In this document: positions 14,425 through 47,125 of the stretch, piece by piece | How the letters are laid out: each line of letters starts with the position of its first letter | Position numbering within the stretch: position 1 is the first letter of the stretch | From: Bryoerythrophyllum caledonicum | Lineage: Eukaryota; Streptophyta; Bryopsida; Pottiales; Pottiaceae | NCBI GenBank assembly: GCA_963971425.1 | Contig: OZ020521.1 | Location: 374,501-438,500, forward strand | Length of the DNA: 64,000 nt | Reading direction: 5' to 3' | Program-made: the position numbers and the translations under genes | The notes under the pieces: generated by a model | The model's database searches: none | Told to the model about the DNA's origin: nothing | What the model saw: the letters and a program-made list of their open reading frames with translations, nothing else

Positions 14425-16577
14425 GCAGTTGGTTATGTGTTGTGTTTGATAGTTGCGAGTTGGTACTGTGGGTCTGTTATTTTTAATTTGTTGGTTAAAA
14501 ATTTCATTTGCGATGTCTTCTGGGCTAGTTAGAATATTATTATATTGGTCAGTGATGCAGTCAAGTGGTGGGGATTCGGTGTGTTTAAAGACTTTTCTGT
14601 TTATTTTTTTGGGGCAAGTTTCGTAAAGGTGTCTGTACTTTGATATGGCTTTTCTAATATTTTCCTTGGTGTATTTAGTAGCGATATTCCGGGCTTGTTT
14701 ATTAGCATTTCTAGCTATTTTGGCGATATCATTGATCCATGTATCATGTGGAAGGTTTGGAGAGGGTGGAGTGGGGATTTGGGTATGTTGTACTGTTAGT
14801 AGTTCGTTACATATGGGGTGGTTTCGCCATAGGGGATTATTCTTTACGATTCTGATGGTTTTTCTTATTATATGATAGGTGTCTAGGTGTTGTTTCCAAG
14901 TTTTAGCAAGTTCGCGGGGGAGGTAACCTCCTTGTTGTGTTGTGCGGTTAGTAATTTTTGGTATTGGTTGTGCTTTGCATGTTTGTACTAGTGTATTGGA
15001 GATGTTGTTAATGAGTATATCTAGGGTATGGCATGCCGCGATCCATGTGTTTGGGAGTTGTGTTCGAGGATGTTTATGAGGGAGTCGATTCGTGCGGAGT
15101 TCTCCTCGAAGAATTTAGTATTGAATTTTTCTAAATTGTCCCTTGGGATGGGGTTGAGTATTCTTGTGGTATTGTTATTTGTGGGTTGGGGGGTACGACT
15201 AATAAGTATGTTGTTAGGAATGTGTAGTTGTAAGGGTGAATGGTCTGAGTTGAGGTTAATGTTTGTGTTTGTTGTGGAGGTGTAGTGTGTATGATTGTTA
15301 GTATTTATGTAGAAACCGTCTATTAGGCTCCAGTCGCCGTAATTATATCCGCCTTGTCGTGAGTATTGTGTGTCGGTTTTTATGTAGTTAAGATTTAGGT
15401 TTTCTATAAAGGTGCGCCATTGGTAATCTATATTTTGGGGGGGGTTATTTTGGTTACCGTTTTGTCTACCAATTAGTGCAATGTCTCTGTTGAAATCACC
15501 ACATAGGATGTGGGTGTGGCTTGGGTAATTATTTATTTGGGATGTAATGGTGTTTTGTATTTCGGTGATGAGTCCCGTATCATTAGGATGTGAGGGCATA
15601 TACATGTGGAATATTATCCATGGTTGTAGTGGTTGGTTTGTGATTTTGATTATTTGTAGATAAGGGGATATGTTCAATGAGGTAGGAATTTTTTTGATGC
15701 TGCCCGGAAAGGCGTATTTTTTGTGTATTAGTGTAAGGAGGCCACCCCGTCCTGGCGTATATGGTCTTCGTTGACGGATGCATCTTGTTAGTGCGTGTGT
15801 GTTATTGAAAATAAGTTTATAGTCTTGAAATAGGTTTTGTATATATTTTGTGGATTTGGTGGCCGATGTCTTGGTTTCTTGTATTACTATGATGGCCGGT
15901 GGCTTGTTTGTGTATGTGACTAAGGTTTGTAAGCTGGGGAGAGCGGTATTCAGGGAGGAAGCATTCCATGTAATCATGAGTGTGTTGTCATTGTTGGAGT
16001 GGATATTTTGGTTTGGTGGGGGTATATGGGGGGGGTGGAGGGAGTGGGTGGGTATATTCCGGTATGGGGTCGAAGCATTTAAGTGATTCATTGATTAGTT
16101 TGTTGGGAAGATAGGGGAATTTTTGTTTGATTGTGTTGTTGGAGGGTGGGCTATTTTGACTAAGTAGGAATTCGTATAGGTCATTATGTATTGAGTTACC
16201 TTGGTTTATGATTTTTCTATTGTTTTCTAGGAATTCCGTATACGGGTGTGTATTTTGAATGTGTCTTTCGGGTGGATTTTGCAATATTAGTAGGGATTGT
16301 AGTAGTGTGTTAGTCCATGAGGTTATATTTTTGGTTTTGTGTGTCTAATAGTCGATTACATTCATCTATGTTTGGGTGGATGGTGATTATTAGGGCATAT
16401 AGGATATGTGTGGGGGGGTGTGTGTGTTTGTTGTATGTATCGGGCAATGTTTGGGTGTCTTGTGTTGTATGTTTGGTGTGAAGTATGTGTGTTTTTTAAA
16501 AGGGGGGCGAATGTTTTAGCAATATGTTCATACTTTGGTTGTAGCTTATGGTGTTTGGTATAAAGTATATTTTGGCA
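14425..16577 (-). pseudogene. LINE-A ORF2 apurinic-type endonuclease and linker (broken)
   Basis: The main frame (16,091-15,021) carries the endonuclease/exonuclease/phosphatase set: MITWNASSLNT, VIQETK, HMYMPSH, CGDFNRDIALIG, WSLIDGFYI and LNSDHSPLQLH. This domain nicks target DNA to start target-primed reverse transcription. Frames at 16,284-15,988 and up to 16,577 give the segment after the 2A site (ending near AKIYF). 14,425-15,020 is the linker to RT. Frameshifts interrupt it. The upstream edge (16,566-16,577) is one copy of the LINE-1 target duplication. Confidence 0.88.
16566..16577. repeat. Target-site duplication of LINE-1, left copy
   Basis: TATATTTTGGCA here is repeated at 29,629-29,640. 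Both copies lie in LINE-A ORF2 at the AKIY codons, so joining the flanks restores LINE-A order. Twelve bases is a normal LINE target-duplication length. Confidence 0.85.
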
Positions 16578-16911
16578 GCAACGCTAGGCTTAAACCGGAC
16601 ATCCTCTGTGTAAAGGTTTACCATATAATGACCCACCACCCGATAACATCAACCAAGATTACACCATCCAATTCATTGAATTCACATATTGCAATGATAG
16701 ATTCTCCCCGGAAACAATCCAAAATAAAATAGATAAATACCAACCCCTTATAGATGACATCATCGCCCTCGGATGGAATGTCGACCCCCTTATTGTTATC
16801 ACATCCGGCGCTCGTGCCACCACCTTCATCCCATCTATGAAAACTCTAGAAGACACCTTCAAGATACCCATTGAAACAATTAGAACCTCCTTTAGAAACA
16901 TTAACACCATA
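16578..16911 (+). pseudogene. LINE-1 C-terminal restriction-like endonuclease fragment
   Basis: Encodes the PD-(D/E)xK-like domain also seen in LINE-2 at 39,820-40,140: RLKPDILCV, then IQFIEFTYCNDRFSPE, KIDKYQPLI and VITSGARATTF. Several differences from LINE-2 in this stretch (for example ATT/ATC, TTC/TTT and AAT/AAC around IEFTYCND) are synonymous, which suggests past selection on the protein. A one-base deletion near 16,610 shifts the frame. The fragment is cut by the DNA transposon at 16,912. Confidence 0.8.
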
Positions 16912-16912
16912 A

Positions 16913-16942
16913 ACACGCAATTAAGCAATTATGCACTTGGCC
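16913..16942 (+). repeat. Left terminal inverted repeat of the 12.3-kb transposon
   Basis: Thirty bases identical to the reverse complement of 29,222-29,251. Its inner edge overlaps a perfect 16-bp palindrome, GCACTTGGCCAAGTGC (16,933-16,948), a plausible transposase-binding site. Confidence 0.92.
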
Positions 16943-16948
16943 AAGTGC

Positions 16949-17664
16949 GCTAATTGGCGCTCAATAACAACAAGATTTTGAGCGGAAATGTCTTTTGGAA
17001 GGAAAAAAAATCCAACAATCCCTATTTTTTCTTTGCTATATTTTTGTGACAATTTCATTGAATATTGGTTTCTCAATGTGTACACAAGTAAATCATTTTC
17101 ACCATTTCGGCAAGATTATGCATAATATATGATTATGGTATTTCATTTTTATTCCATTGACAATATTACATTGACCATGTACTTACAAGAAACTATTCAT
17201 ATACAATTTGTTGCATGAAATAAATTTTATATGAATTTAAATAAATTTTAGTGTCGTGTTACAAATACAATTTGTAGGAGATGTAATGATAAAGCACGCA
17301 ATACAATGATGAAGTGTGAGGTTTAGAACTCTATATTTTTCATATATATAAAACCATACATGATATAACTATTGAATACTACAAAGATCATATACTACAA
17401 TCAAACAAACTGTCTCTAAAGCAAATATACCAATCACACTGTACTAGTCACCTAAACATCATGTATGCTTAGCTACGGTATGACCTCAGAGTCTTCATCA
17501 TCTTATGGCGATATTACTCCCGTAGCGTGTTCCATGGCAGTATTTACCATTTCAGCCAACTCCTCTTCTCGCACCGGACTATCTCCAAGACTGACTGATG
17601 TAGACTATTCATATCTGTAGCTACCAGGGTCGCCGTGCCGCGTGTGCCTTACGCCATCTGCATC
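16949..17664. other. Noncoding subterminal region, left side of the transposon
   Basis: AT-rich DNA between the left TIR and the end of the minus-strand gene. It would hold the 3' UTR of that gene. No repeat, RNA gene or frame of note was seen. Confidence 0.5.
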
Positions 17665-20600
17665 TTAATAGAAGCCATCCCTAAATGTCATCGGTGTAGT
17701 GAAGGTCTCTCGAAATTCAGCAACATCTTCCGGTTCGCTCTGTCTTGAAACAGATGGTCCAGTGCCACCTCCAATACCTTCAGCGCTCCCATGTGTCGCA
17801 GATCCAAGCTCTGATGGAGTAGGCCCCAAAGACTGTCCACCCCTACTCAACTCCGAAAAAAACATGAGAGAATCGGTCGTACACTGCTCTGATTCTGACA
17901 GCTGAGAAATGGATGTGTTCATCCCATCTGTTGGTGCCTCTGAAGGAACATCCAGTACCCTAGTATCTTCCCCCATTCCAACAGGTGTCTCATGTACACA
18001 AACTCCCACATGCGGCGGCGGCGTTGTTAGAACCACGTCTCTCCTAGATGCTCCCCCATCTTCACCTTCGTCTTCCTCTTCATCGTCCTCCTCGTCTTCC
18101 CCTTCTTCTGCTTCACTGCTTCGTTGCGAGTCGAGCGAGCGGCTGTCAGGCGTCGATTCGTCCGTCCCGTATTCACGTGGCAATCTTTCGTTCAAATGGG
18201 TGTAGAAATCCACATCATCGTCACCTTCCGTTCGTAAAGGAATCGCATCTTTGGTAGCATCCACACTAGTGGGAGCATTGTCCGTTCCATCGATGTTGTT
18301 AGACATCAACAAATGCCCTTGGAAGTTGTTGGTCAACTCACCGTACAAGAACGAAATCCTCTCGCTGCAATCGTCGATGACAATGATCTCAGATCCCTGG
18401 AAATCCGAGTGTAGTATAGTCGGAATCGCTGTTGACATGTTACATACCACCAAACCCCAACCCCGAGGCAAGTACGAACCCACCAGTCTTGATAACTCAG
18501 ATGGAGATCTCTCAAGAGCATCAACAGTAGAAGGCTCTCGTGCTCCGCCACGGTTATCATCAAATAAAAGAGGAAGGGGACGGCGGCCAATAATAAAATT
18601 CGCCTCAACAGACAATCCAGCTGGATGTTGGAGACAAATAATGATATCGCCCATTGGTTCAACTGCTTGTTGTAAGCGCCCTCCCTCTGTAAAGTTCAGA
18701 GGATGATCAACCAAGGTCTGACCAAACGCCCAACATCCACGCCGATGAGAGCAACCCTCCGGGAGCTTCAACTTCGTAATCAACTCTTCGGTGGCGAACA
18801 CGGCCGGTGGTAATAGGAAAATGACGTTCCATCGTTCGACGGTCGTCATCCATAACGCCAGTTGTGCAAAGATTCTAGTGAATTGTTCATCTTCCCAATG
18901 ACCATTGCCATGCCTTCCACCGCCACGGCGACAATCAATAATCCACAGGTATGGCCGTGTCAACTCCGCATACTCTGAACGGAATAGTCCTCTTCTATAC
19001 CGAATCAGAAGCGGATCCTGTGTGTCATTCTCGCCTGGCCTCTGAACATGCAATTGCCACTCCCAGTTGATAGTGTTTGCAACTCCCTTACGCATGGATG
19101 GTGCATTCTGGCCTTGCCCCTTTGCTGCAACAACCTGATAATGTACCTTGATGAAAGGAGGGACGAGGTCGCTTATGTCTTTGAGCTTCGACACCTTCTC
19201 TCGCTGCGGCGCACCCCATTTGGTTCTTGTTTTGCTATCCAACAGTTCAGCAAATTTGTCAAGTTGCTCCTTGCCTCCTGGCAAATACTTCCGTATAGAT
19301 ATACGAAAGAACTCTTCCATGGAATTCGGTGAAGATTCTTTGTTCTCTACCATCAACCAGCGAATGGTATTTATCACCGCTTCTCGTCTCATAATGCGCT
19401 CACATACACCGGCAAGGGTACGAGTCCTTGGATTTTGGTCTTTAACTCCGTTGAAGTAAAGTGCTTGACGAGGTCTACATCCATCCTCGCCTACTGGCTT
19501 GGCTGTATAGGCCTTTGCAACCTCCAGATAGTACGAATCTGGAAGTCTCCCAAGCGGCCTCAACCAATGCCCGGTCATCCGCTTTCGCCTCGGTCGAACA
19601 TCCGCATTCGGATCCAAGTTCTTCTTCAGTGCCAAAGCCTTCCACCTCTTCTCCTCATCCTTGTTGTAAAACAGGAAGCCGTTTTCGTAGTCCTTGCTGA
19701 CTTGAAGGGCAGCTTCAAAGCACTCATTGCTGGGATTCCAAGCATGATTGGATAGGTCCTCCATGATCTTTGCCAGTGAGGACATTGTAATCTTGTTGTC
19801 ATCTCCATGAGGCAGTTTCCGCACGGCACTTGCTGCGCTCACCAGTGCGATAGCCCTGCGTTCATCGTCCGCCCGGACCGAGCTATCAGGCCTACCATAT
19901 AGATCCCATATCTGTCGGAGCTTCACCAAATCCTCATTCATGGTGGAAAGTTGTTTTCTTTGCCACTCCGCATTATTGACCTGTACTGACTTGTTGATGT
20001 AAAGTCGTCGATCATCGTACACAACAAAGGTAGCCTCCCGCTCCTCAAACGTCTTCTGATACTCAGACAGAGGGATGTTGCCGCTCATGCACTGCTCCTT
20101 TGCATACTTGCAAGCAACTACAACGTGTTGCCCGTCCACAGGCTCCCAAATGATACGCTCTTGAAGCCAAGATAGTTGAGAGCCCGCAGTACCGTGTATA
20201 GAAGCACCCGCATGGATTAAGAACATCCGTTCAAACTCTCGTGCTGCTCCAGTAACTGGGAAATCCACTCCCTCACGCTCAACCGTGCCAGTGTCGGTAG
20301 TGATATCCATGAGGTACCGGATTGGACGAAGTACCAATTTACTCACTCCGGTTCTGTTCTGGGGATCTCGTAAGAAGTGATACACTTCTGATTTCCTCTT
20401 CTGTGACAGTATCCGATGGTTTGTCTCCAGATTCACGACTTCGACGATGCGATCAATGTGTGCCTTGAATACAATGTCGCCCCATATAGAACCTCTCGCA
20501 ACTTCCTCCTTCGTAGGTACTGGCGCTTTCAAATGCCTAGAAGTTGGAACGGTTGCTGGAATGTCTGCCTCCTCCTCCAAATCTCCCAATGACTGATCAG

Positions 20601-21081
20601 AAAAGTTGTGCAAGTCGTTATCCATGGCCGACAAACTCACAGAGACACCCGCTGTAGATGTTGAGGATCTACGATGAGTTTCGGCTTGTCCAGCTATCGA
20701 TTCACGGCCCCTGCCACGCGATGACGATGTCCTGCCCCGCGACGTCGATGCCCTGCCACGCAATGTCGAGGCCCTGCCACGCGATGTCTCTGAACGGCCA
20801 CGCGATGTCTCCGAACGGCCACGCGACCGCCGTCCATCAGAATCTGGAGCTCTGTTGCCCTCTTCACGTCGTGGGCGCTTAGATGGACGACCACTTGTTG
20901 GTGCACGAACACGCGATGGTGGCAGTTCAGTGGGCGGCCGCCAATCCAACTGTGTCGGCCTTGCTAATGTGCGATAAATGGGCTCGGTCTCCTCTGGATC
21001 CGCTGGTAGACTTGCACGTTCAACACTTGCACGCTCTGGCTCCGTCCGCCGTAATGCCTCGTACATGGTATGAGCACTCAT
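17665..21081 (-). CDS. Unrecognised 1,138-residue protein of the DNA transposon
   Basis: A single open frame of 1,138 codons. Residues 65-74 (RPSKRPRREE) look like a nuclear localisation signal. Residues 86-126 are SRGRxxT repeats, an RGG-like nucleic-acid-binding tail. The middle (about 220-700) is globular, mixed alpha/beta. About 710-790 has LWIIDCRRGGGRHGNGHW and WNVIFLLPP, which could be a Rossmann-like fold, but I cannot name it. About 985-1,010 is a Glu/Asp run, and the C-terminus is Ser/Gly-rich. It lies opposite the transposase gene within the same TIRs, so it is probably a second transposition protein. Codon 1 is 27 bases after the stop of the frame at 21,582-21,109 and in the same frame, so the true N-terminus may be longer. 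Confidence 0.75.
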   Translation of the reverse strand: MSAHTMYEALRRTEPERASVERASLPADPEETEPIYRTLARPTQLDWRPPTELPPSRVRAPTSGRPSKRPRREEGNRAPDSDGRRSRGRSETSRGRSETSRGRASTLRGRASTSRGRTSSSRGRGRESIAGQAETHRRSSTSTAGVSVSLSAMDNDLHNFSDQSLGDLEEEADIPATVPTSRHLKAPVPTKEEVARGSIWGDIVFKAHIDRIVEVVNLETNHRILSQKRKSEVYHFLRDPQNRTGVSKLVLRPIRYLMDITTDTGTVEREGVDFPVTGAAREFERMFLIHAGASIHGTAGSQLSWLQERIIWEPVDGQHVVVACKYAKEQCMSGNIPLSEYQKTFEEREATFVVYDDRRLYINKSVQVNNAEWQRKQLSTMNEDLVKLRQIWDLYGRPDSSVRADDERRAIALVSAASAVRKLPHGDDNKITMSSLAKIMEDLSNHAWNPSNECFEAALQVSKDYENGFLFYNKDEEKRWKALALKKNLDPNADVRPRRKRMTGHWLRPLGRLPDSYYLEVAKAYTAKPVGEDGCRPRQALYFNGVKDQNPRTRTLAGVCERIMRREAVINTIRWLMVENKESSPNSMEEFFRISIRKYLPGGKEQLDKFAELLDSKTRTKWGAPQREKVSKLKDISDLVPPFIKVHYQVVAAKGQGQNAPSMRKGVANTINWEWQLHVQRPGENDTQDPLLIRYRRGLFRSEYAELTRPYLWIIDCRRGGGRHGNGHWEDEQFTRIFAQLALWMTTVERWNVIFLLPPAVFATEELITKLKLPEGCSHRRGCWAFGQTLVDHPLNFTEGGRLQQAVEPMGDIIICLQHPAGLSVEANFIIGRRPLPLLFDDNRGGAREPSTVDALERSPSELSRLVGSYLPRGWGLVVCNMSTAIPTILHSDFQGSEIIVIDDCSERISFLYGELTNNFQGHLLMSNNIDGTDNAPTSVDATKDAIPLRTEGDDDVDFYTHLNERLPREYGTDESTPDSRSLDSQRSSEAEEGEDEEDDEEEDEGEDGGASRRDVVLTTPPPHVGVCVHETPVGMGEDTRVLDVPSEAPTDGMNTSISQLSESEQCTTDSLMFFSELSRGGQSLGPTPSELGSATHGSAEGIGGGTGPSVSRQSEPEDVAEFRETFTTPMTFRDGFY

Positions 21082-21108
21082 AAATCTTCTAGCGCGTGCC
21101 TCATCCTC

Positions 21109-21582
21109 TTAAGATAACGCCAAACATGCCAACACATGCTCATGCCTAGCAGTGCGCACCGCAAGATCCGTGCTGAGCCAAAACGTCTGTAACGAGGTTA
21201 TGTTATTCACCCGCCTTGAATTTTGAAGGAGATCTGTAGGAACAGGTGCTAGAAGCAACTTCTTTGAAAGAGAAGTCTTTGATGCCGTTTGGCCAACCCC
21301 CGGTATGCAAACTGCATAGACCATATCGTCTGGTCGAAGATTAATTGCTCCAAGTTCAGCGAAGGGCTTCCCCAATGCTGATGTGCGCATCCCTATTTGA
21401 AATGGATGTTCCGTGAGCCACAATACTGGCTTCGACGCCGCGTCTACTGCAATCCACCAACCATACTCCTCCCAACGCCTTTCGATTAGAAGTGGTGGTG
21501 CCATAATGTCACATACAAGAAACCTGATCATAATCACAATACATATACAATTGTCAATACGGTGTATGTTCATATACATCAA
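21109..21582 (-). CDS. N-terminal exon or broken N-terminus of the 1,138-residue protein
   Basis: 157 codons; a better start is Met-27 at 21,504 (MAPPLLIERRWEEYGWW), giving 131 residues. The sequence looks like a folded domain (WWIAVDAASKPVLWLTEHPF, VCIPGVGQTASKT). It ends in TAA at 21,111-21,109, and nine further codons lead in the same frame to the Met of the next gene. Either the stop is a single mutation in a protein of about 1,280 residues, or a short intron ending near TTAAG/AGGATG joins them. I do not recognise the fold. Confidence 0.6.
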   Translation of the reverse strand: MMYMNIHRIDNCICIVIMIRFLVCDIMAPPLLIERRWEEYGWWIAVDAASKPVLWLTEHPFQIGMRTSALGKPFAELGAINLRPDDMVYAVCIPGVGQTASKTSLSKKLLLAPVPTDLLQNSRRVNNITSLQTFWLSTDLAVRTARHEHVLACLALS

Positions 21583-21839
21583 TGCTTACACCTTCTAAGA
21601 AAAATACACAAAAGCATCATGTTACAACTCAAATGTGGCTTCCTTGACTTGTAATGGTAAATCCCTAATATTTATGACTCTACAAAATGTCAATTTTAAA
21701 AATCATTAGTCCCATTTTTTTTCTCTTTCATACCATGTGAAAACACACCTAAAAAGTTCAAATCCGAAGTCGAAATTCCAAAAAAAATATTATTTCGGAA
21801 GTTATGAGCTCACTGTTAAGTGAATCTGCGGAAATTACA

Positions 21840-22050
21840 GTTTCATCCATAAAAGATGAAAATCGCAGCACGGATGAAAATAGAGGATGACGAATCACAG
21901 CTGATGGAAAATCACAACGGATGAAATGTGTAAAAACAACGGATGAGGAGGAAAATATACAGGGGATGAAAAGGGAAAAAATCAACGAATGAAATGCCTA
22001 TAAAGGGATGAAAAACAGTGGATGAAAACTTGTGGATGAAATGCCAAAAA
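21840..22050 (+). repeat. Cluster of GATGAAA motifs
   Basis: GATGAAA occurs seven times in about 200 bases, mostly as (C/G/T)GGATGAAA, with further variants such as GGATGAGG and CGAATGAAA. Spacing is irregular (about 15-45 bases), so it is not a simple tandem repeat. It may be a protein-binding array upstream of the minus-strand gene. Confidence 0.7.
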
Positions 22051-22527
22051 GTGGCTTCCGCTCTAAATCTGAAATTAATATGTAATTAAAGAATTACGGA
22101 CTTGGCTAATTCCAGCAAATAAACCACAAAAATATGCCCGGATTTTTTACAAATTTTTTATAATTTTTTTTGAATTTTATTCAAATTTTTAATAATTTCA
22201 AATTGGAATGGAAAGTAGGCTTCGTAAACTTCATTTCATTATTTGGACTCAAAATCACAAAATATCATGTTAATGACTCAAATTCAGATTTAGAGCTGGA
22301 GCTAGAATCTACGAAATCGGAAGAAATTCTGCAAATCTTCACTATGGTGATTTCAGCGACCTTTGAGGATTTTTAGAAAAAAGAGAAAAAATTAAAAAAA
22401 TCCGAAAAAAATTGGGATGATACCTCCAGATTCAATCTACAAGGGAAAAAAAATTCAAGTTGTTTTGAATTGTTGAAAATTTCTTATAGGCATTTCAGTT
22501 TCGTCCAAATCTATGGAAAAAAAACTC

Positions 22528-22531
22528 TCTT

Positions 22532-22588
<57 letters not shown>
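22528..22588 (+). repeat. Poly(T) tract
   Basis: About 60 T with almost no interruption, followed by CCCCCC. On the minus strand this is a poly(A) tract, so it could be the tail of a small retroposed insert, but no matching element body or target duplication was found. Confidence 0.9.
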
Positions 22589-23010
22589 CCCCCCTTACAG
22601 CGATACAAGGTTTGACCGGGTATGCGACTGGATCACGGTATGACCGGATATATGACTAAATAATGGGTATCAACAAACTTTGGAAGGGATATCAACCAAG
22701 AGCAAGGGCACGATCAAGAGCCCCCTGCGTACGCACGGGCCGTAAGAGAGTTGAGCCCGCTCGACATTGCCGACGCCGAACCCTAGCCTACCCACACTGC
22801 CAACGCCGCTTCGAAATCCACTACGCCGCTCTGACCTTAGCGGCTGTGATCCTACTGACTTCGATACGTACAGCACATGGAGGAGAGAGATGAGGGTGAA
22901 GTGAGGAGAGAGGACCAGTAGATTAGTTAGTCCTTGCAAGTTCGTGATGTTGCTTGCGAGTTGGTCATGTAGCTTGTAGGTTTTTTGCACGTTGTTCACT
23001 CATCTACTCG

Positions 23011-23232
23011 CAGGTTGTTCACGTGGCTTGGAGCGTCACTCACTCACTGACAGGTTTTTCACGCAGCTTGGAGCATTACTCACTCACTCACTCACAGGTT
23101 GTTCACGTACCTTGGAGCGTTTCTCACTCACTCACGAGTTGTACAGTCGCACCTTGTTCTCGAGGTGAAACCCTAAAACACCCTAGGAGAAACCCTAAGA
23201 TACCCTAGGTGAAAACCTAAGACACACTAGTC
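23011..23232 (+). repeat. Short tandem repeats (CAGGTTGTTCACG units, then ACCCTAA units)
   Basis: Three units of 40-44 bases starting at 23,011, 23,051 and 23,095 share CAGGTT(G/T)TTCACG, CTTGGAGC and CTCACTCACT. From 23,160 to 23,232 three shorter units share GAAACCCTAA and CACCCTAG, resembling a degenerate plant telomere repeat. Confidence 0.75.
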
Positions 23233-25528
23233 GAAAGCCAAGGACACCCCCGCGTACGCACCCCCCTGAGGTGAGAAGTCCAGCCATGAAAATGGCGGCG
23301 CCGTCGAAATTAGGGTTCCAAAAATCAGGGTTTCCAGATCGCCGGCAATGTTTAGATAATTAGGGTTTTCAGATGTGGTGTCCCATGTTTTCCAATTAAG
23401 TAACGACCAACCTTAAACCCTAAACTGAAGTTCACAAGATATAACGCAAACAAAATTAAATTATAAGTAGTTTAGAATGATTGTGCACCTGAGTAGTTTA
23501 GAAAGGACGTGCTACTCTCCGCTTTGAACCTGCAATCACATAAAACCAGTGAACAACATGATAGGATGAAGTAGAAATCTTGACCATCTAAAAACATCTA
23601 AAAACATCTAAAAACATGATATGTCGAGCTCACCTTTGGATGATTGTAAAAAAGAGACTCACTATTATGAAACGGTTGCCTTATATGGATTTCTAAACTT
23701 TGTGGTTAACTACTCTACTTTTATACATGTACCAAATATTACCTTCTTTTAAGAATATTACCTTGTGGTCAAACACCCTACTATTATACATATAAAGAAT
23801 ATTATTTTATGGTCAAACAATCTACTTTTATACATATAAATATTACCGTTTTTTTTCTTACCAAATTTTTTATTGTTTACTATAAAAAGTACATTTTAAC
23901 CCAAGTCGAACATTTTTAGACATTTTGAGGAAGGGGGAAAAAAACTTGTTTTCTACATAAAAACTAGAGATCTTCAAAGTCTTTGCCATTATTTTTTTTT
24001 TATCACAATATGTGGTGAAAACCTTAGTATCAACCGTTTGGATTATCAAAGTATTCCATATTTGTGTTAAAAAAAAGGTAAAACGTGAATTGGTTATTTT
24101 TCATTTCTTTTCAATTAGACGTCAAAATTAGATGCTTTGCCACTTTTTAGTTGTGGTAGTTTTGGGGTGTTTCTTGATGGAAAAAGGCTTGGAAATTTAG
24201 GGGTTTGTTCCTTAAGGATACTTACGTTCATTGAAATTTTAATATAAAAATGTCCTTCACAACAACTTTTTGGAGGTATTTAAATTATTGTATTTGGCTT
24301 GATGGTTTGAAAGTTAGTTCATACCTAATATTGGAACTTACAACTTTTGCTATTACTCTCTATTGCCATTAAGATTTTCCATACCCATAAAGGAAAAATA
24401 AGACTTTTAGAATGGACTAGAAAATAATTATTATATTTTGTGTGAATTTCTAATTGTATATAGATCTAAATCCGAGTCAAATGTTTTCAGGAAAATGATT
24501 GGAAAAAACCATACCTTCTATAGTAAAAAAAGCTTATAAATCTTCAAAGCATTCCCTTCTACTATTTTTGATATCTATTAGTGATAAATTTCTTCTTAAC
24601 CGTTACAATTGTCATTCTAGAACATATTATCATTTTCAAAGTAATATATCACAATGTAGCAAATAATGAATCTGTATTCATTGCACATTATTTTTGTAAT
24701 ACGCTTTTATTTTCTACCTCTTAAACTTGGTTCTAAAGAACTAATAAAAACTATTAACAAAACAATAGAATATTTAGACTTTCTTTAGTGCAAAAATGAA
24801 ATACAAAGTGAAGTCAAATTTGATCCTATACTTTTAAAGTAGGGATGAGAATGAATCTTTTCCTCAACTTCAAACCTTATAATCTTTTAAGCTCTACGGC
24901 CAACATTTATGTCCTTTTGATAATTATATTGATCAATGGATCATTGTTGAGATGTAATAATTAGGACATCAAATAATGTTGTTGACTTCTAATTTACACT
25001 TTGGAGTAGGATCAACAATTAGTACTTATATTTAATGTAAAATTGTAAATGAATTTTAGGAGTTGATATACAAAGATTTTAGGTTGTTTTCATCATGTCT
25101 AATATAATCACACTAATGTGTTTGTTATAATTAGGTCGTAAAGATTTTGGAACGAAAGGAAGAGCATAAGTTTTAGCAACGAAGGCTGATTGGTGATATC
25201 CTCATATAGAGCGACGTTGAACTCCGGTACCACGCCCTCTGATACTCACAATTAAAATCCAGGTCAGAAATACCTTCTTATACTGATATGATGGCTATTT
25301 GGATGTATCATATGTATCGTGCTTTACATTGGATCACTTGAAATTGCAATTTTGTCCAATTAGCTCTGCTTGTGAATCATATAAATGATCAATCATTACA
25401 TGTGAGAGTATAAGTATATGTCTATCAGTGAGTAGTCTATTGGATGAATGATGATTTTGAATTGGAAAAAAATATATATATTTTGACAATTTTTCCACTG
25501 TCGTGTCTATATTTGTCAAATAGTATCG

Positions 25529-28500
25529 ATGGAAAGCGGAACATCCCAGATTCCTTTAGAACCTCCAAACATTCGCAGATCAAATATCCTTCCTACTAGT
25601 TCAGTGGGGGCTCGGTTGATACGAGCAGCACGGGCACGCCAAATTCAAGAGAGATCGGTTGGGATAGGTGATTTTGAAGCGGGAAGGACTGTAGAATTGC
25701 TCTCCAAAATAGGCATTGTCGTGGGTTTGGCAAAAAGGGAGCATGCCTTTGAAAGTGGAATGGTATTGCATGGATGTAGAATGTTTCCATCTGAGGTGGC
25801 AGTGCGTATAACTCGGGTTGACGATGCATTACATTGGACAGGAGAAGTTGTGGGTGAACGGCTTGGTTCATGTATGGACCTGATCATTCGTTGGAACCGG
25901 TCATTGCTTCGTGACTTGGCCACAACACCTAATTTTCCAAATGCCCATGGTGAAGATAGGTCTCATATTTCACCTACACGGACAACGGCCCTAGGATTTG
26001 ATGTTCAAAGGCGATCTATCACTCCGGAATTGAATGAAAGATCTCTGTGGAGTAGCCAAGCTTCAAACCCCGTTGATGAGAGTTCACCATTTTCTCAATG
26101 CACCCCCTCTAACATTCGAGATTTGCCCCATGTGGAGGGATTTGCTCACGTTAGAAGAGCGCGCCGACCTTATTCTATGCAGAATAGAAGAAGGATAGTT
26201 TCAAACGAGTCAAATGTGACAGGAACTGTAGCAAGTAAGGTATCTTTGGCAAGCGTGGAAAGGGCAATAGCACAGGGAGGATGCAAGCAAAATTGTTTGA
26301 GGGACATTCCAGCAAGGCATATTTTAGACATGCGATATAACGCTTGGGCACCAGAGTATTCAATCCGAAGTACATGGATAAGACAAATGTTGGTTTCTTT
26401 TTATACACGAACGGAAGGATTTCGTCGGGATAAATTTGAGACGAAGTTAGATGGCAGGCATGTTTGCAATGCTTGCTACGCTCTTGGGGTTGGTTATTCG
26501 CAACGGCGTTTTAAGGAGTTGAAGAAAGATTGTTTAATATACGGTAGAGTGACGGCAATCCACGGTAACACACTATCAAATCCGATTAGAGAGAGCACTA
26601 GAATGTCTGCTGCGGAGGCTTGCTTCAAATCATTTGTGGAAGAAGCTGGATGTCCTCAACCTCATCGTTCTATTTGCCGTAAAAATGACAACACAGTGGT
26701 GCCTCTTATTTTCCTTCCAATGAATACAATAAAATTTGACGTATTCAATTACGTGAATGAAGAGGTGAAGAGAATATGCAATGGAGATACCATTTCAATT
26801 AGCTCGTTCCATAGGATGTGGCGTTTGAGATATCCCCATGTCCAGGTTCCACCATTCTCAAGGTTCTCAAAGTGTTATCATTGTTGGAAATATAAATGTG
26901 CTATGGAGGGCACAACCAATGCCGATGCAAGGATTAGGATCAAAGAATTGTTTATGTTGCATCTACGCATCCAGATGGAGGAACGCAGGCATTATTGGAT
27001 ATTCAAGAGGTCGTGTTATATCCACCCTGAGTTGTATATGTGCATCATTGTGGATGGCATGGACCAAAACACAACCATGGTACCAAGAATGCGTCAAACC
27101 GTAAAGAACATTGAACACCGGTTTGTGAAGACCCATCTATGCGGGGCTCTAGTACATGGAATCGGTTTGTATTGCGACATATGGTTTGGAGCTCACCACA
27201 AACATGACAGCAACCAGGTCGTGAGCACGTTGTTATATGTGATTGGAGACGTGTTGCGGAGGAAGGGATTTTTGCCACCAACATTGCGCATCCAAGCAGA
27301 TAATTGCACCCGTGAGAATAAAAACATCTATATGTTTGCTCTATGCGCATCCTTGGTGGGATTGGGATTTTTTCAAGAGGTGGAACTCTCTTTCCTTATA
27401 GTGGGCCATACACATGAAGATATTGATCAACGCTTCAGTTGTATATCAAGTACTTTGAAGAGATCGGACGTGGAATCCTTAAAAGAAATGCTTAAACTTA
27501 TCGAACGGGGAACGTCTCCTACGGAGGCATTTGTCACCGCACGGCTCTTAGAGAATGTGTGGGATTGGAAACAGTTCATAGCACCCCACCTACTAACAGG
27601 TCCGGATTCATTGGTTGGCATAACATTTCCACACCACATGCGATTCTATATAGATGATAGAAATGGGACCCACGAGGTTCGAGTGCAACACAAACATTAC
27701 TGCAATGATGCTTGGGGACCGGAGACAGGGACAAAGACTTTAAGGTTGCTACCAAGTAGAGATGAGCGACCAGCGTTTGCAAATGTGTTTGCAGCGGACG
27801 AACGGGAGCTAAAAGCGTTGGATGACTTCATTGCCTATAAACAGAGGTGCATTGAAAGATTGCAACATGTGGAAAGGAACCGTGATGCTAAAGTGGAGGC
27901 CGAGAAATTGAAATTGTACTTAGCCAAATTTCCACACAAAGACCGTAGCAACGAGCATCATTCTTTACCATTTTGGCCTTCAGATGTGTCAAATACCGCA
28001 ACTGCGGAACTTGTTTCATTGGATGAAGTCAACGGCCCAAGCTACGAAAATCGTGAAGTAACCGTCGTGGACCAAATTGTGGCTATACTTCCATATGCAG
28101 ACTCTCGAGGATATTTTGGTCCGCGTAGAGGAAGACCATCGAATCAAGCAGTGCATAGGGCACAACGAATGGAACGCAACCATGAACGAATCGAACAAGG
28201 AGCAGGGGATGAAGTTAATCACGACCTGTTTCCACCATTCAATCCACAATCAGATATTAATTGTGGACAATTTGTAGCCCTGAGTGTTGATAGAGCTGAG
28301 GTTGAAGGTGGTATACCATTCTATGTAGGGAAGGTGATTGAAGATGGGAAAAATCAAAGGAGTCATAAAATGAAGGTTTGTTGGTATTGGCCCATCATGC
28401 AAAGAGAAAATGTTGACAGAACAGGGTCCACCGCACAACGATATGCAAATTGCATGGATGCATTTTGGGAGCCCACGTGTGAGAGCCACAATTGGGTAGA

Positions 28501-28711
28501 AAAAGAGGCATGCATCTTTTCGTGGATAGACGAACCTGAAAGAACAGTGGCTGGCGCTTTCCGGAGGAGAAAGCGAAATATATTCGGATCGCAAGTTGAA
28601 AGCAAGATTCGGATTTTTCAGTCGGCTAAGGTTCACATACTAGAATATATTGCAATGCAAACCGAAGCAATTGACAATGAGCGGTTGCAAGTAGCCTTGA
28701 ATGATATGTAG
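25529..28711 (+). CDS. Putative transposase, DUF7869-like, 1,060 residues
   Basis: An intact frame of 1,060 codons from ATG at 25,529. About residues 260-345 carry the family's N-terminal block (HVCNACYALGVGYSQRRF). The core has FSKCYHCWKYK, then an acidic motif IIVDGMDQ (Asp-509), HHKHDSNQ, IQADNCTRENKN (Asp-591) and the hallmark FLIVGHTHEDIDQRF (Gly-626 to Phe-635; Asp-631 and Asp-633). From memory this matches proteins annotated DUF7869 in plants, algae, oomycetes and some animals. The acidic motifs suggest an RNase H-fold (DDE-like) nuclease, which is inference. The last 200 residues (CGQFVALSVDR, PFYVGKVIEDG, CWYWPI) form a separate C-terminal domain. Placement inside perfect TIRs makes it the best transposase candidate for the element. 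Confidence 0.85.
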   Translation: MESGTSQIPLEPPNIRRSNILPTSSVGARLIRAARARQIQERSVGIGDFEAGRTVELLSKIGIVVGLAKREHAFESGMVLHGCRMFPSEVAVRITRVDDALHWTGEVVGERLGSCMDLIIRWNRSLLRDLATTPNFPNAHGEDRSHISPTRTTALGFDVQRRSITPELNERSLWSSQASNPVDESSPFSQCTPSNIRDLPHVEGFAHVRRARRPYSMQNRRRIVSNESNVTGTVASKVSLASVERAIAQGGCKQNCLRDIPARHILDMRYNAWAPEYSIRSTWIRQMLVSFYTRTEGFRRDKFETKLDGRHVCNACYALGVGYSQRRFKELKKDCLIYGRVTAIHGNTLSNPIRESTRMSAAEACFKSFVEEAGCPQPHRSICRKNDNTVVPLIFLPMNTIKFDVFNYVNEEVKRICNGDTISISSFHRMWRLRYPHVQVPPFSRFSKCYHCWKYKCAMEGTTNADARIRIKELFMLHLRIQMEERRHYWIFKRSCYIHPELYMCIIVDGMDQNTTMVPRMRQTVKNIEHRFVKTHLCGALVHGIGLYCDIWFGAHHKHDSNQVVSTLLYVIGDVLRRKGFLPPTLRIQADNCTRENKNIYMFALCASLVGLGFFQEVELSFLIVGHTHEDIDQRFSCISSTLKRSDVESLKEMLKLIERGTSPTEAFVTARLLENVWDWKQFIAPHLLTGPDSLVGITFPHHMRFYIDDRNGTHEVRVQHKHYCNDAWGPETGTKTLRLLPSRDERPAFANVFAADERELKALDDFIAYKQRCIERLQHVERNRDAKVEAEKLKLYLAKFPHKDRSNEHHSLPFWPSDVSNTATAELVSLDEVNGPSYENREVTVVDQIVAILPYADSRGYFGPRRGRPSNQAVHRAQRMERNHERIEQGAGDEVNHDLFPPFNPQSDINCGQFVALSVDRAEVEGGIPFYVGKVIEDGKNQRSHKMKVCWYWPIMQRENVDRTGSTAQRYANCMDAFWEPTCESHNWVEKEACIFSWIDEPERTVAGAFRRRKRNIFGSQVESKIRIFQSAKVHILEYIAMQTEAIDNERLQVALNDM

Positions 28712-29221
28712 TAAAGGAGTATACTACAATGAGTGTATGGTGATTGGCATGTAGGGTATATGCAAGAGTAGTCTTCCACTTGGTTATGTAAGGCGTTTGG
28801 TAACAATTGACCAATAAATCCGAGAGGTTTTTCCCATTGTTTGATTACATCACCAAGTACAAGAATATATGCAATATGTTGATTTTCTTCTTCTTAAGTA
28901 TCACGTTCCATGAGTAATATATTCAAATCAATTGCCATTCATTGTGCAGTGTTTTAGTTTACATAATTGCATATTTTGTATAGTTACTTGACAAGCTTCT
29001 TTCCAAAAACATACTACTAAGTATGAAACAAATATTTATCAAATTCTAATCAAGTTCCATATCAAATTTGTCAAAAATGCCAAAAAAAAACTTATTGAAT
29101 TAACATTTTTGGTTAATTGTTCTCAGATCCTAAATTTTTTTTTAAAAAAAACAGGAAATCAAACAAAACTTAATTTGATCCAACGCATTGGCCGCCGCTG
29201 TCACTAAGTGCACTTTTAAAA
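28712..29221. other. Noncoding subterminal region, right side of the transposon
   Basis: AT-rich 3' flank of the transposase gene up to the right TIR. Just inside the TIR is the palindrome AAGTGCACTT (29,207-29,216) and TTTTAAAA, paralleling the GCACTTGGCCAAGTGC palindrome at the left end. Nothing else was seen. Confidence 0.5.
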
Positions 29222-29251
29222 GGCCAAGTGCATAATTGCTTAATTGCGTGT
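29222..29251 (-). repeat. Right terminal inverted repeat of the 12.3-kb transposon
   Basis: Reverse complement of the left TIR over all 30 bases, ending ATTGCGTGT. It is followed by CCATA (29,252-29,256), the same five bases that precede the left end. Confidence 0.92.
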
Positions 29252-29628
29252 CCATAGCTATTCAATATGCCATGTCCATTCTTCTTCATAAACGCAAAAT
29301 CGAAAACAACCAAGCCCTCCCCGACACACAAGACCCCCCCTCGAATTCTTCCCCCGCCTTGATTTATCATGACTAATTGGCTTGAGGTCTTTTAACTTCT
29401 TGCTTGATTTGTGGATTGGCTCGTTGGCTAGTTGCTAGGTTAGTGATTCGTTTGGTTGGTTGGTTGTTTTGTGGTCCTTTGGCTACTTGTTACATAGTGT
29501 CTACCCTCGAGAGAGGGGAGTAGTTCCAGCTTACTAATTCTTTGTCCTGTGGGCATGGTCTTAGTAGTGGAACGAACAGACACTTTATTCACGCCGGCCT
29601 CCTTCGGAGACCGGCGTTCTTCTTCTTC
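29252..29628 (+). pseudogene. LINE-1 ORF2 C-terminus and 3' UTR
   Basis: Resumes the LINE frame after the DNA transposon (AIQYAMSILLHKRKIEN region), then a 3' UTR of about 260 bases matching LINE-2 at 40,231-40,479. It includes the terminal hairpin (29,593-29,615) and ends in TTC repeats, followed by the right 12-bp target duplication (29,629-29,640). Confidence 0.85.
29593..29615 (+). other. LINE-1 3'-terminal RNA hairpin
   Basis: GCCGGCCTCC, loop TTC, GGAGACCGGC: nine pairs with one C-A mismatch. The LINE-2 equivalent (40,445-40,467) keeps the fold with compensatory changes at two pairs. It is likely the RNA recognised by the element's reverse transcriptase. Confidence 0.78.
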
Positions 29629-29992: not shown

Positions 29993-31006
29993 TGTATGTG
30001 TTGTGTTTTCGCTTGTTATGAGATGTATGAGAGGTTGGGTTTTTATGTGTGAGTATGTTTTAGGATTTTTTTGTATTTGTTGGTGTGTGTGCATTTGTTT
30101 GTAAGTTTGTGTTTGTGTGGATATGTTTTTATTTTTATTTTTATTTTTTGTATATGTGTGTATGTACGAGTGTGTATGTGTTTTTGTGTGGTTTGTTGTA
30201 TGTTTGTGTGTATGTATGTATGCTATTGTATTTATCGGTGTATTTGTTTGCTTTTGGGTTTGTGTTTGTTTGTATATGTATGAGTGTGTGGTGGTATGTA
30301 TTTGTATTTGTAGTTGTTTGTGTATTCCTTTAGGTATTGTTGTGTCTATGTATGTTTGGGTGTAGTTTTTGGTATTTGTGGTCGTATGGTTGTGGTGTTT
30401 TGTATGTGTGTGTATGGATATGATTATATATGTGTGTATGTATTTGTATATGTTAGTATGTATGTATTTATTTGTATGTATGCTTTTTGTATTTGTATGT
30501 ATTTTGGGCCAAGTAGATAGTGTATTGTTCTTGTATTGAGTCTTTTGAGAAGTATAGTATTGGTATACTATATGTATGTACTTTCGTGATACTAGTATTG
30601 TGCTATATGTTCTACTATGTATTTGGTGGTGGTAAGTATGTTTTACCGTGTGGTCTTTGTTCTTCACATGTTTGGCGGCATGTCTTCAATTTGTCTTGGT
30701 TTGACTCTTCCTTTGATGGCTCTCATGGCTTCAATGGTGGCTTGCATGGAGTTTTGGATGCCCTCCATTTGTGCAACGAGCTCGTCATGGAGCTTATCGG
30801 TGTACTCTCTATGTTCCTTCCTCATCTTCTTGTTGTTTTCTTCTAATGCATCCACGAGGTCTTTCTTCGTGACGTTGTTGTTGGTGGAGGAGGAGGCATC
30901 TTGAATTTTGAATGTGTCAACGGTGTTAACCATTGCGGTGTTGATGTCATTAAATCCAAAGCATTCGACTTGTTCTTGAGTTGGTGGCTCCACTCCTTCC
31001 AAACTC
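29993..31006. repeat. 1,014-bp direct repeat, left of LINE-2
   Basis: Equal in length to 40,480-41,493 and identical except for three substitutions I could find (near 30,117, 30,139 and 30,154). The copies begin TGTATGTGTTG and end CCTTCCAAACTC. They flank LINE-2 exactly, and both derive from LINE-A. Confidence 0.9.
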
Positions 31007-33289
31007 ATTACCCACATACAAAATATAAATACCCACATCCCCCCAAACAAACAAGACCTTAAAAACATAACAAAACCTAAAAAAAATATACTACAAAAAA
31101 CAAAAACATTAAAATACAATAACAAACATACATATAACAAAATCTTACTACTTCTAGGAGGAGACATAGAAACCAACCCCGGACCCATGCCCAATATACT
31201 AAAAAGACACCCAAGAATGCACAAAAAAAATGCCAAAATATACTTCATACCTAATACCATAAAACTCCAACCAGAATATAAACACATTGCAAAATCCTTC
31301 GCACCTTTTCTAAAAAACACACATACATCACACCACATACACAACACTTCTCACCCAAACCTAGCCCAATACATACAACAAAAAAATACGCACCCACCAC
31401 CCCACATTCTATATGCACTAATAATCACCATCCATCCAAACATAGACGAATGTAACCATCGTATAAATCCACAAAATTTGAAGACAATAACATGGACCAA
31501 TACACTTCTACAAACTTTACTAAACTTACAAAACCCACCAGAACGACACATTTACACTCCACACCCTTACACTGAATTCCTGGAAGACAACCAAAATATT
31601 ATAAACCACGAGAACTCAATACATAAAAGACTATACAACTTCCTACATAGTCAAGATATACCCCCCTCCAATAATACAATAAAACAAAAATTCCCTTACC
31701 TCCCTAACAACCTCATAAATGAATCACTAAAATGTCTAGACCCTATACCTGAATACACCCACCCACCCCAACCTTCCCTATACATTTCTCCCCAAAATCA
31801 AAACATTCGATCAAATCAAGAAACTACATACATAATCACATGGAATGCCTCCTCTCTGAACACTACCCTTCCCAGCCTACAGACTTTAATCACAAACACA
31901 GACACACAACCGGCCCTCATAGTTATACAAGAAACAAAACTAACCGCCACAAAATCTACAAAATATATACAAAATATATTTCAAAACTATAAACTCATCT
32001 TTAACAATACACATGCACTTACAAGATGTATACAACAAAGGAGACCTTACACACCGGGCCGCGGTGGCCTCATTACATTAATACACAAAAAATATTCATT
32101 CCTAGGCAACATCAACAAAATCCCTACCCCAATGCACATATCACCATACATTCAAATAATTAAAATCACTAATCATCCACTACAACCGTGGTTAATCTTT
32201 CACATGTATATGCCATCCCATCCCGAAGACACTAGATTTCTGTTAGATATACAAAACACTATCACAACCCAAATTAATAATAATCCCAATCATACATACC
32301 TATTATGTGGAGACTTCAACAGAGACATAGCGCTAATTGGCCGCCAAAACGGAAACCATCACACCCCCCCTCAAAACATTGACTACCAATGGCGTCGCTT
32401 CACAGAAAACCTAAACTTCACCTACATAAATACCGATACACAATTCTCTAGACAAGGTGGCTATAATTATAGTGACTGGAGTCTAATAGATGGATTCTAT
32501 ATAAACACAAACAACAATACACAATACACGTCCACAACAAACAAAGACACTATTCTCAACTCGGACCACTCACCCGTACAATTGCACATCCCAAATAACA
32601 CACTAATTAGTAGAACACCTATAATCCTAAAGAAAAACACCATATGCATACTCAACCCCATCTCGAAAACCAACATAGAAAAATTCAACACAAAATTCTT
32701 CGAAAAAAACTCCGTACAAATAGACTCCCTCATAAACACTATGGAAAACAACATTCAATTAACACAAGTACAATGGCAAGAAACATGCCACACACTAGAT
32801 AAACTTATCAATAAAACCTCTGATACACTAGAACAAACTTGTAGAGCACACCCAATACCTCAAATGACAAACAGAACTTCTCAACAAGGAGGGTACCTAC
32901 CCCGTAAACTTTCAAAAATTTGGAAACAACACTTAACCACATACCACACCATACGCAAAACCATTAGAATTGTAAAAAACAACCCCCAATGGCGTAACCA
33001 CCCCATACACAATGAACTATCAATTCTACAAAACATCAAAATCCCTACCCCGCCACTTCCGAACCTCCCCCACGACACATGGATAAAAGACATCGCGGTA
33101 ATTGCAAAAAATGCCAACATACAAGCCCGGAAAATAATCACAAAATACACCAAAGAAAACATTAAAAAAGCCATCTCAAAATATAGACAACTATACGATA
33201 CCAACCCAAAAAAAATTAACAAAAAAGTCTTCAAAAATCTTGAACCCTGCCAATGGACTATATCACAGATCAATATAATAATATTTTAA
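31007..33289 (+). pseudogene. LINE-2 ORF2, N-terminal tail, 2A and apurinic-type endonuclease
   Basis: One open frame from the truncation point to 33,289. After the 2A Met at 31,187 come about 215 residues of unknown function, then the endonuclease: ITWNASSLNTTLPSLQ, VIQETKLTATKS, FHMYMPSHPED, LCGDFNRDIALIGRQNG, YSDWSLIDGFYI and LNSDHSPVQLHI. The Asn, Glu, Asp-x-Asn, Asp and Ser-Asp-His signatures of APE-type LINE endonucleases are all present. A linker to RT follows. The frame shifts near 33,270 into the next frame, which begins DYITDQYNNILTSPED. The domain itself is intact. Confidence 0.9.
31163..31189 (+). other. 2A-like ribosome-skipping motif, LINE-2 copy
   Basis: Codons for DIETNPGP followed by ATG, preceded by LLLLGG. 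The reading frame is open from the 5' truncation at 31,007 through the motif into the endonuclease, so the motif is in-frame within ORF2 and not merely upstream of a start. Confidence 0.9.
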
Positions 33290-35226: not shown

Positions 35227-35292
35227 AAAAGCGCCCTAAATGTTGCTAAACAACTATTTTGCCATCCAACATGCCCCACCACATGTCATATG

Positions 35293-38998: not shown

Positions 38999-38999
38999 A

Positions 39000-40230
39000 T
39001 GCACTCTACCTACTCAACACTCAAATAACACACCCTACCCTTCACAATAGCCACCCCGACCAAACCATATTAACATCAATGGTACAAATGTTACAAAACC
39101 GTACACAAATCACAACCCTCCACAAAGTGAGAGCCCATGCCAACATTGATGGCAACGAACAAGCAGACAAATTAGCGAAAGAAGGCCGAGAAAAAAGACA
39201 CAAAAATGCCAAAGACCCACACGAACATGCCCATGCCACCCCATACTACCTTCAAAAAGAAGATTGGCCTTCCAAAGAAGATACCCCCGACAAAGGCCCA
39301 ATCAGATTTCTGGGCAAATATCTCAAAAAACAAGACCTCTACAACAACCTTGACACAATCTCAGAAAATATTCCTAACATAGAAAAATGGACTAACAATA
39401 ACGACATAGATAATGAACTCTCTACAAACTTTTGGAAAAACCCCATCATCTCAGACTCACAAATAACATGCCTCATCAAATTCTGTACTGGTCAGTATAT
39501 GGGAAACGCTCGCAAACAACTCTTCTTTGGAATAGAAAGATTTCCATCCATAACATGCCCCATATGCCCCTCAACGGACCCCGACACATGGCTTCATGTA
39601 CTACTCAAATGCCAAAACCACCACATTCACTCTCTAATTATCAAAAGACATAATAAAGGGGTATGGGAAATCCGAAAACTAATCACCTCCTACAAAAAAT
39701 CGAGATGTTTCATACTAATGAACGCCGGCACTTTTAATAACAATCCGCAAGAAAACACGGTCCCTCCATGGCTACTTCCATGCTCATGTATGACCCAAAG
39801 ATGTCAATGCAACGCTAGGCTCAAACCGGACATTCTTTGTGTCAAAGGTTTACCATACAATGACCCACCACCCGAGAACATCAACCAAGACTACACCATT
39901 CAATTCATCGAATTTACATATTGCAACGATAGATTCTCCCCGGAAATAATACAAAACAAAATAGATAAATACCAACCCCTCATAAACGACATCATTGCCC
40001 TCGGTTGGAAAGTGGACCCCCTTATTGTTATCACATCCGGCGCTCGTGCCACCACCTTTATCCCATCTATGAAAACTCTTGAAGATACCTTCAAGATACC
40101 CATTGATACAATTAAAACTACCTTTAAAAACATCAACACCATCGCTATTCAACATGCCATGTCTATTTTACTACATAAACGCAAAATCGAAAATAACCAA
40201 GTCCTCCCTGATACGCAAGACCTCCCTTAG
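39000..40230 (+). pseudogene. LINE-2 ORF2, RNase H C-half, CCHC finger and restriction-like endonuclease
   Basis: The frame 39,079-40,230 starts with the last RNase H motif, HKVRAHANIDGNEQADKLAK. A 100-residue spacer leads to a zinc finger CPIC-x9-H-x4-C (near 39,555-39,612), then KRHNKGV, then RLKPDILCV and IQFIEFTYCNDR, with KIDKYQPLI after it. Finger, RHN and PD...(D/E)xT...KY in this order match the restriction-like endonuclease at the C-terminus of R2-type and Dualen/RandI LINEs. The spacing from PD to the acidic residue is about 26, longer than usual. The end is KRKIENNQVLPDTQDLP. Confidence 0.83.
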
Positions 40231-40479
40231 AAACTTTGCCACCTTGTCTCTTCATGGTTGGCTGCCTGTGTGGTTTTGCTTTTTGTTGTTTAGATTAGTT
40301 TGGTCGTGGTTGGTCGTTGTTGGTTGGTTTCTGGCTACTCGTCACATAGTGTCTATCCTCGAAAGGGGGAAGTAGTTCCAGTTCGCTAATTCCTTGTCCG
40401 GTGGGCATGGTCTTTGCAATGGAACGAATAGACACTTTATTCATGTCGGTTCCCTTCGGGAACCGGCGTTCCTTCTCTC
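40231..40479 (+). other. LINE-2 3' UTR and tail
   Basis: About 250 bases matching the LINE-1 3' UTR (29,369-29,628). Shared parts are CACATAGTGTCTA(C/T)CCTCGA, AGTAGTTCCAG, GGGCATGGTCTT and CACTTTATTC, followed by the terminal hairpin and CCTTCTCTC. There is no poly(A). Confidence 0.85.
40445..40467 (+). other. LINE-2 3'-terminal RNA hairpin
   Basis: GTCGGTTCCC, loop TTC, GGGAACCGGC: ten pairs including one G-T. Compared with LINE-1 the seventh pair is T-A instead of C-G and the eighth is C-G instead of T-A, so pairing is kept by double changes. The position, 12 bases from the element end, is constant. Confidence 0.8.
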
Positions 40480-45700: not shown

Positions 45701-45829
45701 TGGGGAGATCAGCAAGTCCAGCACCTCTTGTTGCCCTCTACTCTCAGATCTACGTCTAACTCCCAAAGCAGCCCTCATCAGAAAACTCGGAGCTCTCTCA
45801 GTTCGTCATCTCGCCTACAAAAAAAAGAT
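42742..45829 (-). other. LINE-A 5' UTR with internal repeats
   Basis: About 3.1 kb between ORF1 and LINE-B with no conserved reading frame. It contains an 81-bp repeat in two copies (from 43,031 and 43,112; TTCCTTCGAGGCAGCAGTCC), a 27-bp repeat in about four copies (44,725-44,832), and two related 100-bp patches about 675 bases apart (around 44,240-44,350 and 44,890-45,010) that contain AGCGCTTCC(G/A)C. LINE-3 also has repeats here but of different sequence. The region probably holds the internal promoter. Its outer end abuts LINE-B near 45,829. Confidence 0.6.
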
Positions 45830-47042: not shown

Positions 47043-47125
47043 GTATTTTTCTAGAGTAGAGTATGGTATGTGTAGGGTAGTAGATACTAATTGGTAACTA
47101 TGTATTACCTTGAGGTCTTTGAACC

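Follow-up and report, generated by a model that had tools for sequence, protein, structure and literature searches.

A DUF7869 protein as the probable transposase of a high-copy, two-gene transposon family in Bryoerythrophyllum caledonicum

The DUF7869 family (PF25273) has no function assigned in Pfam, and one of its members is encoded between perfect terminal inverted repeats (TIRs) in the genome of Bryoerythrophyllum caledonicum. The question raised by this locus is whether the protein is the enzyme that moves the surrounding DNA. The window, that is, the whole stretch of 64,000 nt that was analysed (GCA_963971425.1, OZ020521.1, positions 374,501-438,500), lies on C9 of the genome assembly searched (437 Mb, 894 contigs). 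The element at 16912-29252 is very likely a cut-and-paste DNA transposon in which the DUF7869 protein, designated A, is the probable transposase and the product of a divergent second gene, B, is a co-inherited partner.

Ends, target site and empty sites

The features of the element and of its empty-site relative in the window are:

16912..29252, no strand: whole transposon, defined by its TIRs and a 4-bp duplication
16912..16942, + strand: left TIR (B side), AACACGCAATTAAGCAATTATGCACTTGGCC
29222..29252, - strand: right TIR (A side), outermost base altered (C; T in 27 of 28 copies)
16908..16911, no strand: left target-site duplication, CATA
29253..29256, no strand: right target-site duplication, CATA
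17497..21540, - strand: footprint of gene B, broken; largest open piece 17665-21081 (1138 aa)
21541..25528, no strand: region upstream of both divergent genes, with tandem repeats
25529..28711, + strand: gene A, an open frame of 1060 aa for the DUF7869 protein; probable DDD transposase (D509, D591, D633)
39894..40232, + strand: empty-site relative, lying in a different copy of the long interspersed nuclear element (LINE) hit by the window element

The two arms at 16913-16942 and 29222-29251 were fully complementary over 30 nt, as an initial annotation had claimed. When 28 copies were aligned, the base adjoining the terminal 14-mer on its outer side was A at every left end and T at every right end but one, the exception being the C at window position 29252. 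The element therefore spans 16912-29252 and the duplication is CATA, so that the transposon first placed at 16912-29251 was retained with its right boundary moved by one base. The CCATA described on both flanks was a real duplication, of 4 bp rather than 5; on the right-hand side the leading C of CCATA is the changed last base of the element. The only two exact 14-mer matches in the window were the ends of the element itself, and a search of the window alone with 3 mismatches gave 4 matches against 5.75 expected, which is no excess.

Exact 4-bp duplications were found in 22 of the 28 copies, while shuffles gave a mean of 1.26 and reached 22 in none of 2,000 trials. A 5-bp duplication was rejected, the placements tried matching in 0, 0, 6 and 7 of 28 copies compared with 22 when 4 bp were taken and the two end bases assigned to the element. 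The duplications were varied 4-mers. In the flanks of the 22 exact sites, both strands counted, CAC was favoured before the duplication and GTG after it.

Empty sites with one copy of the duplication were found for the window element, L041, L016, L019 and L047. The relative anticipated near 40,142 was located at 39894-40232 and was 89% identical across the joined flanks. The relatives of the window element and of L041 lay at different places in one LINE, hit by these two copies of the transposon, while those of L016, L019 and L047 lay within the middle region of the same family, these three copies being nested in the middle of other copies. For L012 the alignment to LINE copies reached just 69-70%, and no empty site was scored there.

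The region at 21541-25528 is presumed to hold the promoters of both genes. A subterminal palindrome was present on the B side (GCACTTGGCCAAGTGC, 16933-16948; the window and L035 have its perfect form, and 9 of 14 copies read GCACTTAGCCAAGTGC) and another on the A side (AAGTGCACTT, 29206-29215; in 14 of 14 copies). Both are possible transposase-binding sites.

Copy number and co-inheritance of the two genes

Genome-wide, the terminal 14-mer occurred at 1,399 places (705 forward and 694 reverse), while the reversed control gave 0 and 1, an abundance that is not due to chance. Terminus pairs were drawn from the 100 places listed first among the 1,399, a set that takes in C1 completely and C2 up to 9.8 Mb. 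Within it, 29 pairs faced each other head to head at a distance below 30 kb; 27 of these were read, leaving aside the 19.1- and 25.1-kb pairs, which were the longest. Genes A and B were both present, divergent and between the TIRs in all 13 pairs of 11.3-14.7 kb as well as in the window, although frameshifts or stops broke many of these long copies. The 14 pairs of 2.2-7.1 kb were all deleted forms, 9 with pieces of A, 3 with pieces of B and 5 with neither. Of eight more termini (L001-L008), seven had no partner and one belonged to the 19.1-kb pair; part of A or B lay near seven of the eight, and neither gene was seen near L002.

The co-occurrence proposed as a check in the initial annotation was thus borne out, and it extended to a whole-genome search that scored 43 A places of 4,203 first-look candidates and 41 B places of 3,123. 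Neighbouring A and B places accounted for 26 of the 43 and 26 of the 41; all 26 were divergent and in 22 the gap was 4.3-4.7 kb. The partners of the 17 unpaired A and 15 unpaired B places may lie below the scored lists, and at one unpaired A place that was checked further B does adjoin. A search with PF25273 scored 150 places of 3,602 first-look candidates, all above the Pfam cut-off, and matched none of 14 control genomes. Many of these places were open frames of 1,066-1,087 aa with tied scores, which suggests recent amplification. At the 11 scored DUF7869 places where exact termini were fully listed, both ends were present in five, one end in three and none in three; the frequency of the A-side terminus at a random place was 0.002.

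Purifying selection was apparent in both genes. Between subfamilies, the ratio of nonsynonymous to synonymous divergence (dN/dS) was about 0.15 for A (window compared with L039 and L031) and about 0.30 for B (window compared with L040 and L032), with dS near 0.9 and 1.1 (A and B), so both proteins have been constrained. The A and B distances correlated at 0.994 over 14 copies, a value reached in none of 5,000 permutations and mostly due to the window element and L035 standing apart from the other 12. The pairs L031/L039, L033/L047, L025/L045 and window/L035 appeared in both trees, and L029/L037 in the B tree only.

Dispersed copies with common TIRs, a duplication of fixed length, empty sites and deleted non-autonomous derivatives are what a class II transposon with TIRs leaves behind, and membership of the element in a large, high-copy DNA-transposon family is well supported. 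A DUF7869 gene captured from the host and standing outside the transposon machinery would agree with the naming of its relatives in animals and a liverwort as uncharacterised proteins. Such a passenger is very improbable, since A was present in all 14 long elements, is a high-copy repeat, tracked B in its distances and is flanked by at least two types of end. The presence of both genes in every long pair read supported the earlier argument that DUF7869 inside TIRs marks a transposase family, with A as the presumptive catalyst.

Proteins A and B, their relatives and the surrounding repeats

Protein A was an intact member of its family, as first described, with an open frame of 1060 aa that scored as a full member of PF25273 (E=5.6e-51; 173.3 bits, the cut-off being 26). 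The acidic motifs were confirmed: among 85 aligned relatives, D509 was kept in 85, D591 in 84 and D633 in 84, all three together in 83, and the second and third were 41 residues apart in 84. C449 (84), C452 (85) and the H627-T-H629 motif (85) were similarly conserved. No C/DxxH signature between the second D and the last acidic residue was found in any of the 85. Among the 120 of 264 matches listed, the named relatives include proteins of sea urchins, mussels, oysters, a sponge, lancelets, acorn worms, a coral, ribbon worms and the liverwort Riccia. Two weak matches flanked the core: an RFX-like helix-turn-helix before it (core consensus E 0.0073, below the cut-off) and an ORC1 BAH domain after it (profile E 0.013; Pfam BAH E 0.041, below the cut-off). 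The best explanation, short of demonstration, is that DUF7869 is probably a catalytic DDD transposase.

A could instead belong, as a very divergent member, to one of the named DDD/E superfamilies, in which case the element would not represent a new one. Sola, Ginger and Chapaev have 4-bp duplications, so that the length fits, and remote relatives can escape Pfam and sequence profiles. A duplication of this size is also given for Kolobok (PMC9587614). However, all 32 A relatives scanned matched DUF7869, any other family being matched by at most one, and none matched a Pfam transposase at E<=1; in the core consensus DUF7869 alone exceeded its cut-off, and C/DxxH was lacking throughout. The comparison with Sola, Ginger and Chapaev was made through Pfam only, and a place in such a superfamily appears possible but somewhat doubtful.

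Gene B exists and is divergent from A as first described, but the second protein of 1,138 residues is only a piece of a broken copy. Stops at 21109-21111, 17665-17667 and 17605-17607 interrupt a reading that in L035, L032 and L040 runs open for 1,341-1,377 aa from stop to stop, so an intact protein of 1,138 aa was ruled out. Seven further full-length matches in the genome search had no internal stop, and A was open as well in two elements with open B (L031/L032 and L039/L040). The product could not be assigned, in line with the initial annotation: the window protein had no Pfam match at E<=10, and no family was matched by more than one of the 12 relatives found (none of them named; the second search scored the 7,999 best candidates). 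The best single matches (E 0.002 in Pfam, 0.0018 in PHROGs) were read as chance. A likeness of the invariant WEPVDGQH stretch to DGQHR/ParB-like proteins was not borne out by Pfam, NCBIfam, PADLOC, PHROGs or the sequences of the PDB.

These results bear on the alternative that B is the catalytic transposase and the DUF7869 protein an accessory or regulatory passenger. B was present in every long element read and was under purifying selection, with many invariant residues, some of them acidic. Against this, it evolves faster than A, is recognised by no family library and has few, unnamed relatives, while A is widespread with a nearly invariant D-D-D set. The spread of A relatives over animals and a liverwort, compared with 12 for B, suggests that the core component is A. 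A catalytic B is therefore unlikely, and B was taken as a lineage-restricted accessory protein kept by selection.

A more distant copy on C7 (L055+L053+L054) had the same divergent layout, with A and B 7.4 kb apart and 80% and 52% identical to those of the window. Its ends were AACATGCAATTAAGC (AACATGC type) and its duplication ATAA. A sister copy shared the A-side end, and the far end of a second AACATGC copy was not found at the predicted place. In a further group, whose A frame has 1,087 aa, the A-side end, the only side read, begins AACATGGAATT. Viral contigs gave 47 and 20 pattern matches and no relative of A or B. DUF7869 pieces (L049-L052) were present on four contigs of 3.6-6.4 kb binned as Bacteroidetes in a species-genome set, none shown to be an element. 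These short contigs were read as probable eukaryotic contamination, and a prokaryotic origin was rejected. In L052, repeated palindromic units flanked the DUF7869 match on both sides.

Copies of the LINE hit by the two transposon copies lay in the window at 30980-40230 (+), 12361-16094 (-) and 45798-47141 (-), and matched endonuclease, reverse transcriptase and RNase H. The LINE frames at 30980-33289 and 45798-47141 contained GDIETNPGP, which resembles a 2A-type peptide. A Gypsy-like gag with a zinc knuckle and weak aspartyl-protease matches occupied 137-3226 (-), and this gag-protease is presumably streptophyte-like.

Proposed mechanism and relation to known superfamilies

The transposon would move as double-stranded DNA, most likely by cut-and-paste with excision of the element. 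Protein A would bind the termini, AACACGC AATTAAGC AATTATGC, and would cut and join DNA through an RNase H-like D-D-D site (D509, D591, D633). Staggered target cuts by A, preferentially at CAC-NNNN-GTG-like sites, would leave the 4-bp duplications. Protein B, whose gene is read in the opposite direction from the common upstream region, would be a partner kept by selection, perhaps with a DNA-binding or regulatory role. Deleted copies that retain both ends would have been moved in trans.

Several observations weigh against this scheme, 1) six of the 28 duplications were imperfect, five by one base and L025 by three, 2) two of these six, L020 and L021, have mirror-image flanks and are not independent, 3) the exact terminus was absent at 3 of the 11 DUF7869 places, so that not every DUF7869 copy is tied to this terminus, 4) there was no recognisable end in the 701 bases beyond the DUF7869 gene near C1:3212543, 5) no similarity of protein A, for which an RNase H-like fold is only proposed, to known Pfam transposase families was detected and 6) present-day movement or excision was not observed. 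L020 and L021 are 6.0-kb copies whose flanks are reverse complements of one another, as in an inverted segment duplication.

Harbinger, EnSpm/CACTA and MuDR are two-gene autonomous elements with TIRs, with other duplication lengths and protein families. Harbinger and EnSpm/CACTA each have their own transposase family and a duplication of 3 bp (2-3 bp), compared with 4 bp here, and A had no Pfam match to their transposases. Zisupton/KDZ elements are large and have large transposases; A had no match to the KDZ transposase, and one of the 12 B relatives had a chance-level CxC3 match (E 0.12).

A comparable layout is that of KolobokP (PMC9587614), which has a DDD/E transposase, a second protein on the other strand and duplications of about 4 bp. 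The layout was first described as unlike that of hAT, MULE or PIF elements; two-gene layouts have published precedents, and no Pfam transposase match to A was found. According to the same source, C/DxxH is common to five superfamilies (hAT, P, MuDR, Kolobok and Dada), and Kolobok and piggyBac duplicate TTAA specifically. In contrast, the present family lacked C/DxxH and used varied 4-mers, TTAA occurring in 0 of 28.

The broader proposal is that plants and animals share an unrecognised superfamily of eukaryotic DDD transposons whose catalytic subunits are the DUF7869 proteins. In this lineage they would need a second protein, expressed from the common upstream region of the divergent genes, and the catalytic core of A may be linked to a DNA-binding part of RFX-like type and to a chromatin reader resembling BAH. 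We consider this evenly balanced. No paper of the literature searched mentioned DUF7869 or PF25273, and topic searches listed no description of such an element, within a scope without preprints, most subscription papers and Repbase, so the novelty of the superfamily is provisional.

Copies open in both genes exist, and the chemistry is thus directly assayable. The proposal supplies a testable function for a widespread family whose members are now uncharacterised in sea urchins, molluscs, lancelets, corals and a liverwort. If it is correct, annotators could mask DUF7869 proteins as transposon genes, and the family, with its unexplained second protein, would be a candidate for addition to the Repbase scheme, which counts 20 DDD/E superfamilies (PMC9587614).

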